From Nitrospira sp. (GTDB lineage Bacteria; UBA10199; SBBF01): a DNA stretch of 41,184 bases. A program made the position numbers and the translations under genes. Below, piece after piece: positions 3,928 through 9,807 of the stretch. Numbering within the stretch: position 1 is the stretch's first letter; each line of letters opens with the position of its first letter. The notes beneath the pieces are model-generated. The model was not told the origin of the DNA, did not search any database, and saw only the letters and a list, made by a program, of their open reading frames with translations. The stretch lies in contig SBBF01000092.1 in NCBI GenBank assembly GCA_005240075.1, positions 1-41,184 of the forward strand, read 5' to 3'.

Positions 3928-5883
3928 CTACCTTTCGAGAGCTGTTTCCGCGATCTCTTTCATCATTCGATTCAACTCAAAATCCTTTGGTGTGTAAACG
4001 CGGGCGACCCCCTGTTTCAAGAGAATCTTGCGGTCGGCATCGGGGATAATGCCGCCGACAACCAGGGGGATATGATCCATCTTTTTTTGCTTCATGAGTT
4101 TGATCATGTCGCCTACCAGGTCGAGATGAGAACCGGAGAGAATCGATAGTCCAATCACATGCACCCCTTCCTGAAGGGCCGATTCGACGATCTGTTCCGG
4201 AGTGAGACGGATTCCCTGATAGATTACTTCCATCCCGGCATCCCGTGCCCGGATGGCGATCTGTTCCGCTCCGTTGGAATGGCCATCCAATCCCGGCTTT
4301 CCAACCAGAATCCGAAGTTTTTCGCCGGTTTTTTTCTCAAATTCTTTTACGGCCACTTGTGCCGCTTGAAGCCCTTCGGTCAAAACCGCTGAACTCACTC
4401 CCCCCACTCCAGTTGGAGCCCGGTATTCCCCAAAAATTTCCCGAAGAGCCGTTCCCCACTCCCCCGTTGTGACTCCACTCTTTGCCGCCTGAATCGAAGC
4501 TGGCATGATATTTGTTTTGTTTTGAGCGGCCTCTTTAAGTCCTCGAATCGCCTGATCGACCTCTTTTTGATTCCGTTTTTTTCGGAACGCCTTCAAGGCT
4601 TCAATTTTGTTTCGAACGTCATCCGGGTTGATCTTTAAAATACCCGAATCGCCAGTTTCCGTGAGAGGAGAAGGGGCCGATTCAGTATAGCAATTGATTC
4701 CAACGACTTTAATGTCTCCTTCCTCAATCGCTTTGACGCGGGCGGCATGGGAGGTCACGATCCCCTGTTTCATCATCTCCAAGGCCTTGACGGAACCCCC
4801 CGCTTTCAAGATCCGATCGAGTTCCTTTTCCGCCGCGTCTATGAAATTCTTCGTTTTTGCCTCAATTACTTTTGAGCCTTCAAAAATATCTTCATGCTCC
4901 AAAAGATCGGTCTCGAGCGCCAAAACCTGCTGGATCCGAAGCGACCACTGCTGATCCCAGGGGCGGGGGAGCCCCAACGCCTCATTCCAGCAGGGGAGCT
5001 GGATCGCCCGGGCGCGAGCATGACGAGATAAAGTGACCCCCAACATTTCAAGAACAATCCGTTGAATGTTATTTTCCGGCTGTTTTTCGGTGAGCCCCAG
5101 CGAGTTGACCTGAACCCCATAACGGAAGCGACGATATTTGGGATCTTTCACTCCATATCGCTCTTCTGTGATTTTATCCCACAGATGATTAAACGCCCGG
5201 ACTTTGCAGATCTCTTCAACAAAGCGAATACTGGAATCCATAAAAAAAGAAATCCGGCCAACCGCTTTTTCAAAATCGTCCCCTTGAACCTGTTTGGAAT
5301 CTTTGAGCGCATCCAGAAAGCAGATCGCGTTGGCCAGGCCATAGGCCAATTCCTGCACTGGAGTCGCTCCTGCTTCTTGAAGATGATAGGGGCAGACATT
5401 CACTGGATTCCATTTGGGAACATGATGAACCGTGTAGGCAATCATGTCGGTTGTCAGTCGGATTGAAGGTTCCGGTGGAAAAATATAAGTGCCCCGCGAG
5501 AGGTATTCCTTCAGAATGTCATTCTGTGTCGTTCCTGAAAGTGATTTTTTGTCAATCCCTTGCCTCTCCGCGACGGCAATATAGAGAGCTAAGAGCCAAG
5601 CCGCGGTCGCGTTGATCGTCATGGAGGTATTCATTTTGTCCAGCGGAATGCCGTCAAAGAGAGTCTGCATATCTTCGATATGGGAGATGGGCACTCCAAC
5701 TTTACCAACTTCAGCTAAAGCGAGTGGATGATCGGAGTCATAGCCGGTTTGGGTGGGAAGATCGAAGGCGACCGATAAGCCGGTTTGCCCCTTGGCCAGG
5801 TTTTCGCGGTAAAGCTTATTGGAGGCTTTGGCGGTGGTATGCCCCGAATAGGTTCGCATCAGCCATAGATCGTCTTTAGCCAT
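3928..5883 (-). CDS. B12-dependent acyl-CoA mutase, MeaA/ethylmalonyl-CoA mutase type
   Basis: This single-chain adenosylcobalamin mutase rearranges the carbon skeleton of a branched acyl-CoA. Most databases would call it methylmalonyl-CoA mutase. Three features are closer to MeaA/ethylmalonyl-CoA mutases than to classical MutB: the short N-terminus beginning near LWLMRTYSGHTTAKASN, the block SVAFDLPTQTGYDSDHP, and the length of about 650 residues. The substrate is therefore uncertain (ethylmalonyl- or methylmalonyl-CoA). The C-terminal B12-binding domain (about 520-651) carries the Asp-x-His-x-x-Gly motif in GKPGLDGHSNG, then LSILSGSH and VVGGIIP. I place the start at the ATG ending at 5883. 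A TTG two codons upstream (5889) is the alternative. A predicted promoter lies just upstream (5896-5924). No B12 riboswitch is seen. The neighbouring carboxylase suggests a shared acyl-CoA pathway. Confidence 0.9.
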   Translation of the reverse strand: MAKDDLWLMRTYSGHTTAKASNKLYRENLAKGQTGLSVAFDLPTQTGYDSDHPLALAEVGKVGVPISHIEDMQTLFDGIPLDKMNTSMTINATAAWLLALYIAVAERQGIDKKSLSGTTQNDILKEYLSRGTYIFPPEPSIRLTTDMIAYTVHHVPKWNPVNVCPYHLQEAGATPVQELAYGLANAICFLDALKDSKQVQGDDFEKAVGRISFFMDSSIRFVEEICKVRAFNHLWDKITEERYGVKDPKYRRFRYGVQVNSLGLTEKQPENNIQRIVLEMLGVTLSRHARARAIQLPCWNEALGLPRPWDQQWSLRIQQVLALETDLLEHEDIFEGSKVIEAKTKNFIDAAEKELDRILKAGGSVKALEMMKQGIVTSHAARVKAIEEGDIKVVGINCYTESAPSPLTETGDSGILKINPDDVRNKIEALKAFRKKRNQKEVDQAIRGLKEAAQNKTNIMPASIQAAKSGVTTGEWGTALREIFGEYRAPTGVGGVSSAVLTEGLQAAQVAVKEFEKKTGEKLRILVGKPGLDGHSNGAEQIAIRARDAGMEVIYQGIRLTPEQIVESALQEGVHVIGLSILSGSHLDLVGDMIKLMKQKKMDHIPLVVGGIIPDADRKILLKQGVARVYTPKDFELNRMMKEIAETALER

Positions 5884-5895
5884 AAACAATTTAAG

Positions 5896-5953: not shown

Positions 5954-6367
5954 TCAAGGATTGAAAATTTTCACTCCGCTTGCCTGAACATCCTGGATAT
6001 TCCGGGTGACCAAAACCAGATCATGCGTCAAAGCAGTCGCAGCAATAAGCCCGTCGATAACTGGAATTTTTTGACCGATCCTTTCGCTTTTAGCCTCGAT
6101 TCCCCCCCACCGGAGAGCTATTTCCCTGTTTATTTCTAGAAGACGCCCTTCAAAACGTTTGATTAAGTCGGTCTGAAGCCAGTGCCGAAGTTTTTTTTCT
6201 CGATGGAAATCTTTTAATTTGTCGATTCCTTTTTGAATCTCGCCCCGTGTGATAACGCTTAAGAAGAGAATATGTTCCGGAATGGCGTCGATCCATTTGA
6301 CAACTTTCCGTGAGGGAGTTTTTTTGATCAATTCAGAAACCGCACAGGTATCCAGAAGATACGTCAA
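5954..6367 (-). CDS. PIN-domain ribonuclease toxin (VapC/FitB-like), apparently orphan
   Basis: This 137-residue PIN-domain protein is probably a metal-dependent ribonuclease toxin. The acidic residues of the fold are visible: the Asp in the opening YLLDTCAVSEL, the Glu in ITRGEIQKG, the Asp in PVIDGLIAATA, and the closing TRNIQDV block. The start is a TTG at 6367 whose first bases overlap a TGA stop in another frame, as in coupled antitoxin-toxin pairs. The frame that ends at that TGA has an antitoxin-like tail but no intact start (separate entry). The gene lies on the same strand as the acyl-CoA mutase, 64-70 bases upstream of it. With no intact antitoxin visible, the toxin may be inactive, kept silent, or neutralised from another locus. 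Confidence 0.82.
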   Translation of the reverse strand: MTYLLDTCAVSELIKKTPSRKVVKWIDAIPEHILFLSVITRGEIQKGIDKLKDFHREKKLRHWLQTDLIKRFEGRLLEINREIALRWGGIEAKSERIGQKIPVIDGLIAATALTHDLVLVTRNIQDVQASGVKIFNP

Positions 6368-6516: not shown

Positions 6517-6545
6517 TTGACAGAGTCCCTTTCATTTAATACAAC
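6517..6545 (+). promoter_or_regulatory. Predicted promoter of the radical SAM lipid cluster
   Basis: A perfect TTGACA (6517-6522) is followed after 17 bases by TACAAC (6540-6545), giving a leader of about 70 bases. The gene has a strong ribosome site, AAAGGAG at 6608-6614, six bases before the ATG. The remainder of the 253-base gap (6368-6620) shows only a short palindrome at about 6417-6429. Confidence 0.45.
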
Positions 6546-6620: not shown

Positions 6621-8525
6621 ATGAATCATCTATTTAATAGAGCCATCGAATATGGATTGGCAGGGGGAGCCCGCGTGGCTTGGCCCGTTTTTCAGTTCAT
6701 CAACAAGAAAATCAGGGAAGGCAAAACCTTCAAGCCAAAGTGGGCTGATCGAAAACTTTTGAAGAGTTATGAAAAAGTAAAGCCGACGCTTGGTTGGCCA
6801 CGCGAAACCGATTCCTTGTGTCCCGAATGCGTCAAGGAAGTGAGAAGCAAAATCATTTCGGGGGAAACGAGCGTTGATATTCTGCGGACCGGCAATCCGG
6901 GTGAAATCAAAGCGAAGATTGTTGAACGGGATGGAAAGGTCTGGATGATCAAGGATTGTCCCCAGCATGGCCGGTTTGAAGATGTGATGGCTCTGGACGC
7001 CCGTTTTCTGGAACGAATGGAAAAACTTTATCCCGGAAGCGACTTTTACGCTCCCGACACAAAACTTCGCAATCATGGAAGCTCTTCCATCCGTTACGGA
7101 CGGGGATCCGTTCTCACGATTGACTTGACCAATCGGTGCAACATGATGTGCGAACCCTGCTTTATGGATGCCAATCAGGTAGGCTACGTTCATGAACTTG
7201 AATTGGCAGAAGTGCAACACATTCTTGATAACGCCATCTCCATCAAGCCCAAACGCCAGCTCTCCGTTCAATTTTCAGGAGGGGAGCCGACGTTATCCCC
7301 TCTGTTTATCGATGCCATCAAATATGCCAAAAAAGTGGGCTACTTTTCCGTTCAGGCGGCTACCAACGGAATCCGTTTTGCCGAAAATCCGGAATTTGCC
7401 AAGGAGGCTTACGACGCCGGCTTAAGGATTGCCTATCTCCAGTTTGACGGGGTGGGGAATGAGAACAACGCCCATCGCAAAATCGGCAATTTGTTCGATA
7501 TCAAACTCCGGGCGATGGAAAACCTCTATCGCGCTGGTATTGATATTGTGCCGGTCGTCACCATTGTCCGGACAGTCAACGATCATCAGGTGGGGAAGAT
7601 TTTTGATTTTGTTGTCCAAAACTCCGATAAAATCAGTTTTATTTCGTTTCAACCGGTTTCTTTTACAGGACGGGACGAAGATATCAGTGTGGAAGAACGG
7701 ATGCAAAAGCGTTATACTCTGGCTCATCTCGCGCATGATTTCAAAAAACAGACCGGATTGACCGAACCGTTGCGCGACTGGTTTCCTCTGTCGGCAGTCA
7801 GCGTTTTCAGTGATTTTGCCGACATGATGGCCGGCCCCAAGGCGGAATGGGGAAACCTCAAATGCGGCTGTCATCCCAACTGCGGGGTCGGAACCGTTTT
7901 TCTGGTTGATAAACAGAAAAAACAGCAGGTGCCTCTGGGAGCAATGTTGAACATCGAGCAGTTCATGAAAGATGTGGCCATCATCAACGATACATCGCGC
8001 GGACGCAAGCTGTCCGGTTTTCAAATGTTATTGGCTCTCCTCAAAAATTACAATCCCTCCAAAGCTCCGAAAGATTTCAGGTTCAAAGATCTGATCCAAA
8101 AGCTGGATAAGCAAACGGGGGCTTCCTTATCGGACAAGGATTATGGATTGGGATCGGAGCGCAAAAAAGACCGCTGGCTTTTTTTGTTTGTCGCCGGCAT
8201 GTGGTTCCAGGATTTGTGGAACTATGATTTCCGAAGAACCGAGCGATGCATTATCCCCTACGGCACGCAGGAAGGGGAAATTTCCTTCTGCGCCTACAAT
8301 ACCGGCATTGGATGGAGGAATATCATCGAAAACATGTACAAGAATGCTTCCGTGGGAGAATGGTACAGGCAAAAAGGGCGGCATGCCGTTTATGCCAGCG
8401 GAAAGCCGGTAGCGCTCCCCTCGTTTGATAATTCCTTGAAAGTTCCTGGCCAGCCACAGTATGATGCTGCGGCCGCTTACGATCATTCAGCCCCTCTTGA
8501 AGTCAAGCGAGCGGTTGGGATGTAA
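6621..8525 (+). CDS. Radical SAM enzyme, COG1964 / tetraether-synthase (Tes)-like
   Basis: This 634-residue iron-sulfur protein cleaves S-adenosylmethionine to start radical chemistry. The core motif Cys173-x3-Cys177-x2-Cys180 lies in TNRCNMMCEPCF, followed by SGGEP at 219-223. An N-terminal cysteine module has CPEC (67, 70) and KDCPQHG (113), as in COG1964 proteins and archaeal Tes, where a rubredoxin-like iron site is known. C-terminal cysteines at 415, 417, 421, 543 and 557 (CGCHPNC, RCIIPYG, SFCAYN) could hold auxiliary clusters. Archaeal Tes joins lipid tails by C-C bond formation. Whether this protein does so is inference, supported by the CDP-alcohol phosphatidyltransferase gene 11 bases downstream and the SCP2-like gene after it. 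The ATG at 6621 has a strong Shine-Dalgarno and its own predicted promoter. No membrane segment is obvious. The substrate is unknown. Confidence 0.85.
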   Translation: MNHLFNRAIEYGLAGGARVAWPVFQFINKKIREGKTFKPKWADRKLLKSYEKVKPTLGWPRETDSLCPECVKEVRSKIISGETSVDILRTGNPGEIKAKIVERDGKVWMIKDCPQHGRFEDVMALDARFLERMEKLYPGSDFYAPDTKLRNHGSSSIRYGRGSVLTIDLTNRCNMMCEPCFMDANQVGYVHELELAEVQHILDNAISIKPKRQLSVQFSGGEPTLSPLFIDAIKYAKKVGYFSVQAATNGIRFAENPEFAKEAYDAGLRIAYLQFDGVGNENNAHRKIGNLFDIKLRAMENLYRAGIDIVPVVTIVRTVNDHQVGKIFDFVVQNSDKISFISFQPVSFTGRDEDISVEERMQKRYTLAHLAHDFKKQTGLTEPLRDWFPLSAVSVFSDFADMMAGPKAEWGNLKCGCHPNCGVGTVFLVDKQKKQQVPLGAMLNIEQFMKDVAIINDTSRGRKLSGFQMLLALLKNYNPSKAPKDFRFKDLIQKLDKQTGASLSDKDYGLGSERKKDRWLFLFVAGMWFQDLWNYDFRRTERCIIPYGTQEGEISFCAYNTGIGWRNIIENMYKNASVGEWYRQKGRHAVYASGKPVALPSFDNSLKVPGQPQYDAAAAYDHSAPLEVKRAVGM

Positions 8526-8536
8526 GGTGTCCTTTC

Positions 8537-9319
8537 ATGGATATCAACTCTGTCTGGTTTACTCTGATTCCTCTGGCGGTTTTTAACGTACTTTTTCTGG
8601 GGACGGTGTTGGCTTTTCGTCCTGTCTATCGGAACAGCAAGAGACTCAAAGAGGTTGAAGAGCGCCCCGCCTCCAAATTCCTCAATCGCTGGATGCGTGA
8701 GTATTGGCTCTGGTTGACCGATCCTTTTGTCCATCTTTTTGTCCGCCTGCGGCTTTCCCCCAACACCTTGACAACGATGGGGGTGTTGATTGGATTGGCG
8801 TCCGGCTATTTTTTTTGGAAAGGGCATTTTGGTTTGGGGGGGTGGCTGATGATTTTTGGGGCGACCTTTGATACTTTTGATGGACGGGTTGCCCGTGCCA
8901 CGCATAACGAAACCCGATCGGGAGCTTATTTTGATTCCATCATGGATCGCATTTCTGAAGGGGCCTTCTTTGCAGGGCTTGTTCTGTACTATCGCCATCA
9001 TTGGGCGTTATTGATTGTCATCGTTTGTTTGATTGGCTCCTACATGGTGAGCTACACCAAATCGAAGGGGGATGAAATGGGGGCCCATTATGAGGGGGGC
9101 TCCATGCAACGGCCGGAGCGGATTGTTTATCTGGGGGTCGGTGCGATTTTTTCTCCTGTTTTTGCCTGGCTCGTTCAGTTCTTCTGGCTTAAAGAAATGG
9201 ATTTTGTTCTGTTGACCAACACCCTCTATCTGGTTCCTCTCTCTTTCGTTACTCTCATGACTTGGGGCACTTCTTTTGACCGGATGAGAAATGTGATGAA
9301 GATGTTGAGTGTAAAATAG
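8537..9319 (+). CDS. CDP-alcohol phosphatidyltransferase family membrane protein
   Basis: This 260-residue integral membrane enzyme of the CDP-alcohol phosphatidyltransferase family joins a CDP-activated lipid to an alcohol, releasing CMP. The full metal and CDP signature is present: Asp112-x2-Asp115-Gly116-x2-Ala119-Arg120-x8-Gly129-x3-Asp133-x3-Asp137. About six hydrophobic segments can be seen (roughly 8-28, 78-95, 99-111, 140-151, 156-172 and 200-245). The acceptor could be glycerol-3-phosphate, inositol, inositol phosphate or another alcohol, which the sequence does not decide. It starts 11 bases after the radical SAM stop and is almost certainly co-transcribed. A housekeeping PgsA or PssA role is possible, but those genes are usually not paired with a radical SAM enzyme, so a specialised lipid is suggested. 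Confidence 0.88.
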   Translation: MDINSVWFTLIPLAVFNVLFLGTVLAFRPVYRNSKRLKEVEERPASKFLNRWMREYWLWLTDPFVHLFVRLRLSPNTLTTMGVLIGLASGYFFWKGHFGLGGWLMIFGATFDTFDGRVARATHNETRSGAYFDSIMDRISEGAFFAGLVLYYRHHWALLIVIVCLIGSYMVSYTKSKGDEMGAHYEGGSMQRPERIVYLGVGAIFSPVFAWLVQFFWLKEMDFVLLTNTLYLVPLSFVTLMTWGTSFDRMRNVMKMLSVK

Positions 9320-9405
9320 ATACGCGGTCAAGAGAGTTTATCAAGATTGATGTGACCATGGAATATTTTGACCCGATTCTGCGGGTGTGCTAAGCATTAA
9401 ATGCC

Positions 9406-9807
9406 ATGTCCCTCTTTCATTCATCCGATCATCTCAAAGAAGTCCTGGGGGGGTTTTTTGAAATGCTTGGGCATCATCCGGAAGTGGGCCCGAAACTTTT
9501 GGCCTCCCGGTTGATTCTCAAATTTATTTATCGGGAGCCCGATCTGGCCATCACCATCGATTTGACCGGCGAACAAGTGGTTCTCTCCTTCAATGATACC
9601 GAAAAAAAACCGGTTGTGGAGATGAGCATGAAAGCTGACACCGCCCACAGATTCTGGATGGGGGAGTTGAATCTGGTAATGGCGTTGGCCCGTCGGGAGA
9701 TGACCGCCAAAGGCCCCATTCCCAGAATTCTTCAGTTGTTGCCGATCATTAAACCGGCCTATAAAATTTATTCGGAGTATATTAAAGAGAAAGGTCTAGC
9801 TTCTTAA
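9406..9807 (+). CDS. SCP2-like lipid-binding protein
   Basis: This 133-residue soluble protein resembles the sterol carrier protein 2 fold, which holds a lipid in a hydrophobic tunnel. Visible signs are a beta-rich central part (DLAITIDLTGEQVVLSF, then KPVVEMSMKADTAHRFWMG) followed by helices and a segment RREMTAKGPIPRILQLLPI, the 'scaled activity' region seen in bacterial SCP2 proteins. No catalytic motif and no signal peptide are seen. It follows the phosphatidyltransferase by 86 bases, a gap with no terminator, so it may be the lipid carrier of the same cluster. Its start has no clear ribosome site. Its stop overlaps by four bases the stop of the convergent acyl-CoA dehydrogenase gene. Confidence 0.72.
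   Translation: MSLFHSSDHLKEVLGGFFEMLGHHPEVGPKLLASRLILKFIYREPDLAITIDLTGEQVVLSFNDTEKKPVVEMSMKADTAHRFWMGELNLVMALARREMTAKGPIPRILQLLPIIKPAYKIYSEYIKEKGLAS

Follow-up and report, generated by a model that had tools for sequence, protein, structure and literature searches.

The 41,184-nucleotide window analysed here is the entire 41 kb contig SBBF01000092.1 of a Nitrospira sp. genome (assembly GCA_005240075.1; 1.96 Mb, 96% complete), and on its forward strand, at 6621-8525, it encodes a 634-residue radical S-adenosylmethionine (SAM) protein followed closely by a CDP-alcohol phosphotransferase. The radical SAM protein belongs to a separate bacterial branch of the tetraether synthase (Tes) superfamily that lacks the ligands of the N-terminal [4Fe-4S] cluster, and by analogy with Tes we consider it somewhat probable (roughly 0.58) that this branch couples phospholipid tails to form an iso-diabolic-acid-type chain that spans the membrane. 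Given that homology to Tes and its fold, the site of a C-terminal cluster, and a link to the phosphotransferase across families all point in this direction, a role in lipid-tail chemistry is the best reading for the enzyme. The original prediction, made from the sequence alone, had proposed such a role; the Tes fold, the C-terminal cluster site and the conserved phosphotransferase link support it, but membership of Tes proper and the third gene of the proposed cluster did not stand.

Fold, metal sites and phylogeny of the radical SAM protein

Profile, sequence and fold agree on the affinities of the protein. Its Pfam domains are radical SAM (PF04055) and the Tes zinc ribbon (PF23545, 60.5 bits), and the best NCBIfam family is Tes (NF045702), at 336 bits over 63-575, ahead of TrsS (NF045646) at 212 bits. 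The Tes score lies under the curated cut-off of 450 bits, and complete genes from the same class score within a similar range (322-358 bits). The sole strong solved relative by sequence is the archaeal Tes MJ0619 (PDB 7tol, 2.4e-64). An AlphaFold model built from 49 sequences (mean pLDDT 89, pTM 0.90) matches 7tom and 7tol over nearly the whole chain (target TM 0.88-0.89, E 2e-38 to about 1e-38), and the next-ranked fold is MoaA, at 2e-9 over about 230 columns. Because the match to the Tes structure spans the chain and the next fold is far weaker, the predicted structure identifies the protein as a Tes homologue across its whole length, beyond the radical SAM core. The initial assignment to the Tes/COG1964 group is thus borne out as homology and corrected in one respect: with a score below 450 bits and no N-terminal cluster ligands, this is not Tes proper.

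The metal sites were compared in MJ0619 numbering (PMC9433317) across 42 aligned branch members from the genome's own class, Myxococcota, Acidobacteriota and Schekmanbacteria, with seven bacterial Tes-type and four TrsS-like sequences as comparison rows. A rubredoxin-type iron site (C67, C70, C113 and H116, of the form CX2C..CX2H; 6819-6968, forward strand, as are all features below for which a strand is given) aligns with C33/H36 of MJ0619; C67 and C70 are present in 41 of the 42 members, the remaining one having a gap, and C113 and H116 in all. The radical SAM motif CX3CX2C (C173, C177, C180; 7137-7160) is likewise found in 42/42. In the place of the N-terminal cluster, the ligands C73, C77, C80 and H83 are represented by K148, H152, S155 and R158 (7062-7094, forward strand), and none of the four is found in any of the 42 members, nor in 20/20 further members sampled from acidobacterial genomes. 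A conserved stretch, NHG(S/T)S..YGRG, stands instead of the motif and puts H152 at the C77 position. All four ligands are kept in 7/7 bacterial Tes-type and 4/4 TrsS-like rows, and since the outgroup carries the motif, the alignment indicates that it was lost within the branch.

The remainder of the catalytic apparatus is preserved. The C-terminal [Fe4S4] site (7863-8291, forward strand) comprises C421, C543 and C557 with Met527 and Tyr547, which correspond to the labile Met439 and to Tyr459 of Tes, and these five residues are unchanged in 42/42 branch members; two extra cysteines, C415 and C417, lie nearby, of which C415 is an added invariant cysteine of the branch and a non-cysteine in the Tes-type rows. 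The residues of the radical and coupling site of Tes (Q268, S271, R275, G145, M439, Y459 and the three C-terminal cluster cysteines) are all invariant, and in the SAM pocket a lysine stands at the Arg210 position. Since the coupling chemistry of Tes employs the radical SAM cluster and the C-terminal cluster, the roles of its other cofactors being unknown (PMC9433317), loss of the N-terminal cluster does not exclude coupling.

In phylogenetic analysis the branch is separate with 100/100 support, on a long stem of 2.59 changes per column. A tree in which Tes and MJ0619 are held as one side is rejected weakly (approximately unbiased test, p 0.03, with long branches). The TrsS-like rows fall outside the Tes clade; three consecutive TrsS-like radical SAM genes were observed in one class genome (L126, G007:C216).

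The phosphotransferase pairing and the lipid context

The second gene (8537-9319, forward strand, 260 residues) begins 11 bp after the radical SAM gene and encodes a CDP-alcohol phosphotransferase (PF01066, CDP-OH_P_transf, 3.1e-17), confirming the head-group phosphatidyltransferase that had been proposed. The family motif DX2DGX2ARX8GX3DX3D is complete at 8870-8947, where it reads DTFDGRVARATHNETRSGAYFDSIMD. The best PDB relatives are mycobacterial-type phosphatidylinositol-phosphate (PIP) synthases (6h5a/6h53, 5e-22), and the top-ranking NCBIfam models are archaetidylinositol-phosphate and PIP synthases, at 115.6-128 bits, under equivalog cut-offs that run from 170 to 350 bits for families of this type. 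An inositol-1-phosphate synthase (MIPS) is encoded in the same genome and in 41/46 genomes of the class. A PIP synthase is the likely identity of the product.

Among the 46 class genomes surveyed, 23 carry the branch, five others carry an over-cut-off Tes, and none has both. In 17 of the 21 genomes that have both genes, across 10 families, the phosphotransferase is the next gene on the 3' side of the radical SAM gene; among the four genomes without adjacency, G037 is uncertain, as its radical SAM gene sits at a contig end. The 17 adjacent pairs divide into 11 on the same strand and 6 convergent, and because the tree requires two orientation changes, the pair was preserved through inversions. 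Within the window's own family the pair has been retained while the genes around it were replaced. The other neighbours (UvrB/UvrC, GreA, HAD, enolase, Mrr, QueG and FGGY kinase) are ordinary and variable. In one genome (G005) an intact phosphotransferase gene adjoins a truncated radical SAM remnant (L116:4708-4923, G005:C60), possibly because the gene was lost from the conserved pair or because the assembly is faulty there. The pairing is thus suggestive as a lineage-wide association and is no proof of joint function.

The lipids expected around such an enzyme are best considered in Acidobacteriota. Iso-diabolic acid is formed by two iso-C15 chains joined at their tails. It is common among the lipids of acidobacterial subdivisions 1 and 3, and in Edaphobacter it accounts for 12-30% of the fatty acids (PMC13274423, PMC11354219). 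In a sample of 101 genomes around a Bryobacteraceae metagenome-assembled genome, 92 contain a Tes-family match at a threshold of 1e-50. The scores of complete genes are bimodal, at about 280-340 and 563-599 bits; by a count from the listing, 86 genomes have a below-cut-off match, and all 20 below-cut-off genes sampled are of the branch without the N-terminal cluster. The branch is accordingly a candidate maker of membrane-spanning lipids in Bryobacteraceae-related soil Acidobacteria, which are kin of known makers. In two acidobacterial genomes the genes for the branch protein and for Tes proper are near neighbours on the same strand (L152:1207-5126 and L037:5980-12143). Among 79 Polyangiaceae relatives, 32 (about 40%) match the Tes model at 321-365 bits and are putative branch members by score, and none has an over-cut-off Tes.

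In the source genome itself, a 1220-residue protein with two BadF/BadG domains and DUF2229 (L114:2179-7485, G000:C85) has the two-activation-domain architecture that has been linked to the ester-to-ether reductase Ger (PMC13274423), and by its domains it is a candidate reductase of the Ger/PlsA-like type. Directly after its gene lies that of a 547-residue protein that matches neither Pfam nor NCBIfam. DUF2229 occurs in 22/46 class genomes, comprising by manual count 12/23 branch carriers, 4/5 Tes carriers and 6/18 others, so that its co-occurrence with the branch is suggestive only. Archaeal-type lipids were considered and rejected, as GGGP synthase was not found in the source genome. Given this result and the presence of the Ger-type candidate, the tails are expected on genomic grounds to be bacterial and not archaeal, and the product, if coupling occurs, would be an ester-linked or mixed ether/ester-linked coupled lipid.

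Proposed reaction and its alternatives

In the scheme that we infer, which covers what the enzyme acts on and makes, its role in the membrane, the path of the electrons and what the pairing means for function, the branch enzyme would join two phospholipid tails, probably iso-branched and either acyl or alkyl, at their methyl ends. If the chemistry follows that of Tes, SAM would be cleaved at the [4Fe-4S] cluster bound by C173, C177 and C180 to yield a 5'-deoxyadenosyl radical, which would abstract a hydrogen from the terminal carbon of a tail; the substrate radical would be held on the C-terminal [4Fe-4S] cluster (C421, C543, C557 and Met527) until attack by a second radical formed the carbon-carbon bond. 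In the branch the surface N-terminal cluster is gone and the rubredoxin site is retained. Head-group synthesis would fall to the adjacent gene, with phosphatidylinositol phosphate as the probable product, and this would fit coupling after head-group attachment; crystals of Tes contain bacterial phosphatidic acid, and head groups are bound non-specifically (PMC9433317).

Several observations weigh against this scheme. The long stem makes a changed reaction possible. The phosphotransferase orthologue is present in 43/46 class genomes, whether or not these carry the radical SAM gene; the pairing was not seen in the Myxococcota or Acidobacteriota loci examined; and other neighbours are also kept, such as enolase in 9 loci, so that inherited synteny may account for part of the linkage. 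Iso-diabolic acid in the Bryobacteraceae-related genomes is something we infer by analogy with cultured relatives. We know of no membrane-spanning lipids reported from myxobacteria, though about 40% of the sampled Polyangiaceae relatives have a match that scores like the branch.

The strongest alternative concerns the pairing and not the radical SAM reaction: the two genes may share ancestral synteny without joint function, the phosphotransferase being a housekeeping enzyme of inositol lipids. The near-ubiquity of the phosphotransferase, its intact copy next to the G005 remnant and the frequent proximity of enolase are what such a history would leave, and we regard it as a serious contender, though short of an even chance. 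Against it, the two genes have remained neighbours through both orientation changes and while the other genes around them were replaced, the latter even inside the window's own family, and the odds that two named genes are adjacent by chance are estimated at roughly 1 in 1000 per genome of about 2000 genes.

That the branch performs as its main reaction a task other than diabolic-type tail coupling is unlikely. The long stem, the loss of one redox cluster, the extra invariant Cys415 beside the C-terminal cluster and the lysine at Arg210 would all be compatible with such a change, and several acidobacterial genomes carry both the branch and Tes, which suggests separate tasks. However, the coupling-site residues are invariant, Met439 and Tyr459 included, and nearly all genomes in which iso-diabolic acid is expected carry the branch, whereas an over-cut-off Tes is found in only 22/101 of the genomes. 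More improbable still is a substrate that is not a lipid, perhaps a cofactor or peptide, which is what the old pterin-methylase annotation of MJ0619 assumed; the related TrsS-like proteins have no function known to us, but the fold matches Tes over the whole chain, C-terminal domain included, and the neighbouring gene encodes a lipid enzyme.

The three-gene lipid cluster of the original prediction, which added an SCP2-like carrier, can be virtually dismissed, for although its genes are co-directional and close together in this genome, the SCP2 orthologue occurs in 17/46 class genomes and adjoins the radical SAM gene in this genome alone (0/16 other carriers), and in two of them (G004 and G006) it has the acyl-CoA dehydrogenase gene within some 3-4 kb. 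What persists of the proposed gene cluster is the two-gene unit; the survey rules out the third member (9406-9807, 133 residues), which begins 86 bp after the phosphotransferase and matches SCP2 (PF02036) marginally, at 22.9 bits against a cut-off of 21.3. Small downstream genes in Schekmanbacteria (L053) and in G037 (L076), considered as stand-ins for SCP2, gave no Pfam match up to E 1. All three open reading frames are intact and co-directional, as first described. The single promoter assigned to them corresponds to a string that does exist 5' of the radical SAM gene, TTGACA-17-TACAAC at 6517-6545 (forward strand, by direct reading), but it is weak: a consensus scan showed no excess (6 promoter-like sites against 5.4 expected from shuffles), and this site was not among them.

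Elsewhere on the contig are two VapC-like PIN-domain toxin genes (497-967 and 5954-6367). In six class genomes a MarR/ArsR-like regulator lies immediately 5' of the radical SAM gene, and in the window a VapC-like PIN gene occupies its place. The interval 3928-5889 encodes a methylmalonyl-CoA-mutase-like protein with a fused B12 domain, which scores far under the full mutase equivalog and is possibly a different acyl-CoA mutase.

Significance and relation to known systems

Branched tetraethers and iso-diabolic acid are the basis of widely used soil and lake temperature proxies, and to our knowledge the tail-joining enzyme of Acidobacteria is unproven. The branch supplies a specific candidate for this step and separates two Tes types that identity thresholds merge. 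It also predicts that Myxococcota and an uncultured class include producers, and it suggests that one of the auxiliary clusters of Tes is dispensable in the superfamily. A bolder proposal, which we hold tentatively and consider doubtful, is that the branch is the main iso-diabolic-acid enzyme in Acidobacteriota and is active also in Myxococcota and an uncultured deltaproteobacterial class, where it would be coupled genetically to inositol-phospholipid synthesis. If true, membrane-spanning inositol lipids occur in bacteria not suspected of making them.

Bacterial Tes homologues, possibly making branched tetraethers, are already described in earlier work (PMC8941075, PMC10087280, PMC11868695). 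Relative to the accessible portions of the literature, three things appear new: the branch without the N-terminal cluster, its presence in nearly all Bryobacteraceae relatives, among which Tes is rarer, and the pairing of its gene with one that resembles PIP synthase genes. Zeng et al. (2022) proposed bacterial Tes homologues as possible makers of membrane-spanning lipids, reporting one in E. aggregans (32%, 4e-61) and others in Koribacter and Solibacter (40-42%) (PMC8941075). These belong to the same superfamily, and their set with E under 1e-50 would take in the branch. On the published numbers, the Edaphobacter aggregans homologue would fall in the similarity range of the branch, and those of Koribacter and Solibacter look like the over-cut-off type. 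The main text, so far as it was accessible, holds no statement on a lost cluster or a gene pairing (PMC8941075).

TrsS, a radical SAM (seleno)protein family, is second-best by score, but TrsS-like rows, unlike the branch, retain the N-terminal cluster ligands and fall outside the Tes clade. The membrane-spanning lipid synthase Mss of Thermotogota and Bacillota is reported to have the catalytic architecture of Tes and diabolic-type coupled tails as its product (PMC13274423); compared through control scores rather than an Mss sequence, the best Tes-model match of T. maritima is weaker than 1e-50, versus 1e-100 for the branch. With the PIP synthases (6h53, BT1523 and archaetidylinositol-phosphate synthase) the neighbouring phosphotransferase has the CDP-alcohol motif in common, its nearest solved relatives are among them and MIPS is in the genome, but it scores below every NCBIfam equivalog cut-off and its head group is putative.

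The closest system is archaeal Tes, or GDGT-MAS (MJ0619, NF045702, 7tol/7tom). From it the branch protein, at 29% identity and below the curated cut-off, differs in having no N-terminal [4Fe-4S] ligands, an extra N-terminal helix (residues 2-30), the extra C415 and a lysine for Arg210. With it the branch shares the fold over nearly the whole chain, the radical SAM site, the rubredoxin iron site, the C-terminal [4Fe-4S] cluster with its labile methionine and Tyr459, and the SAM-loop residues Gln268, Ser271 and Arg275.

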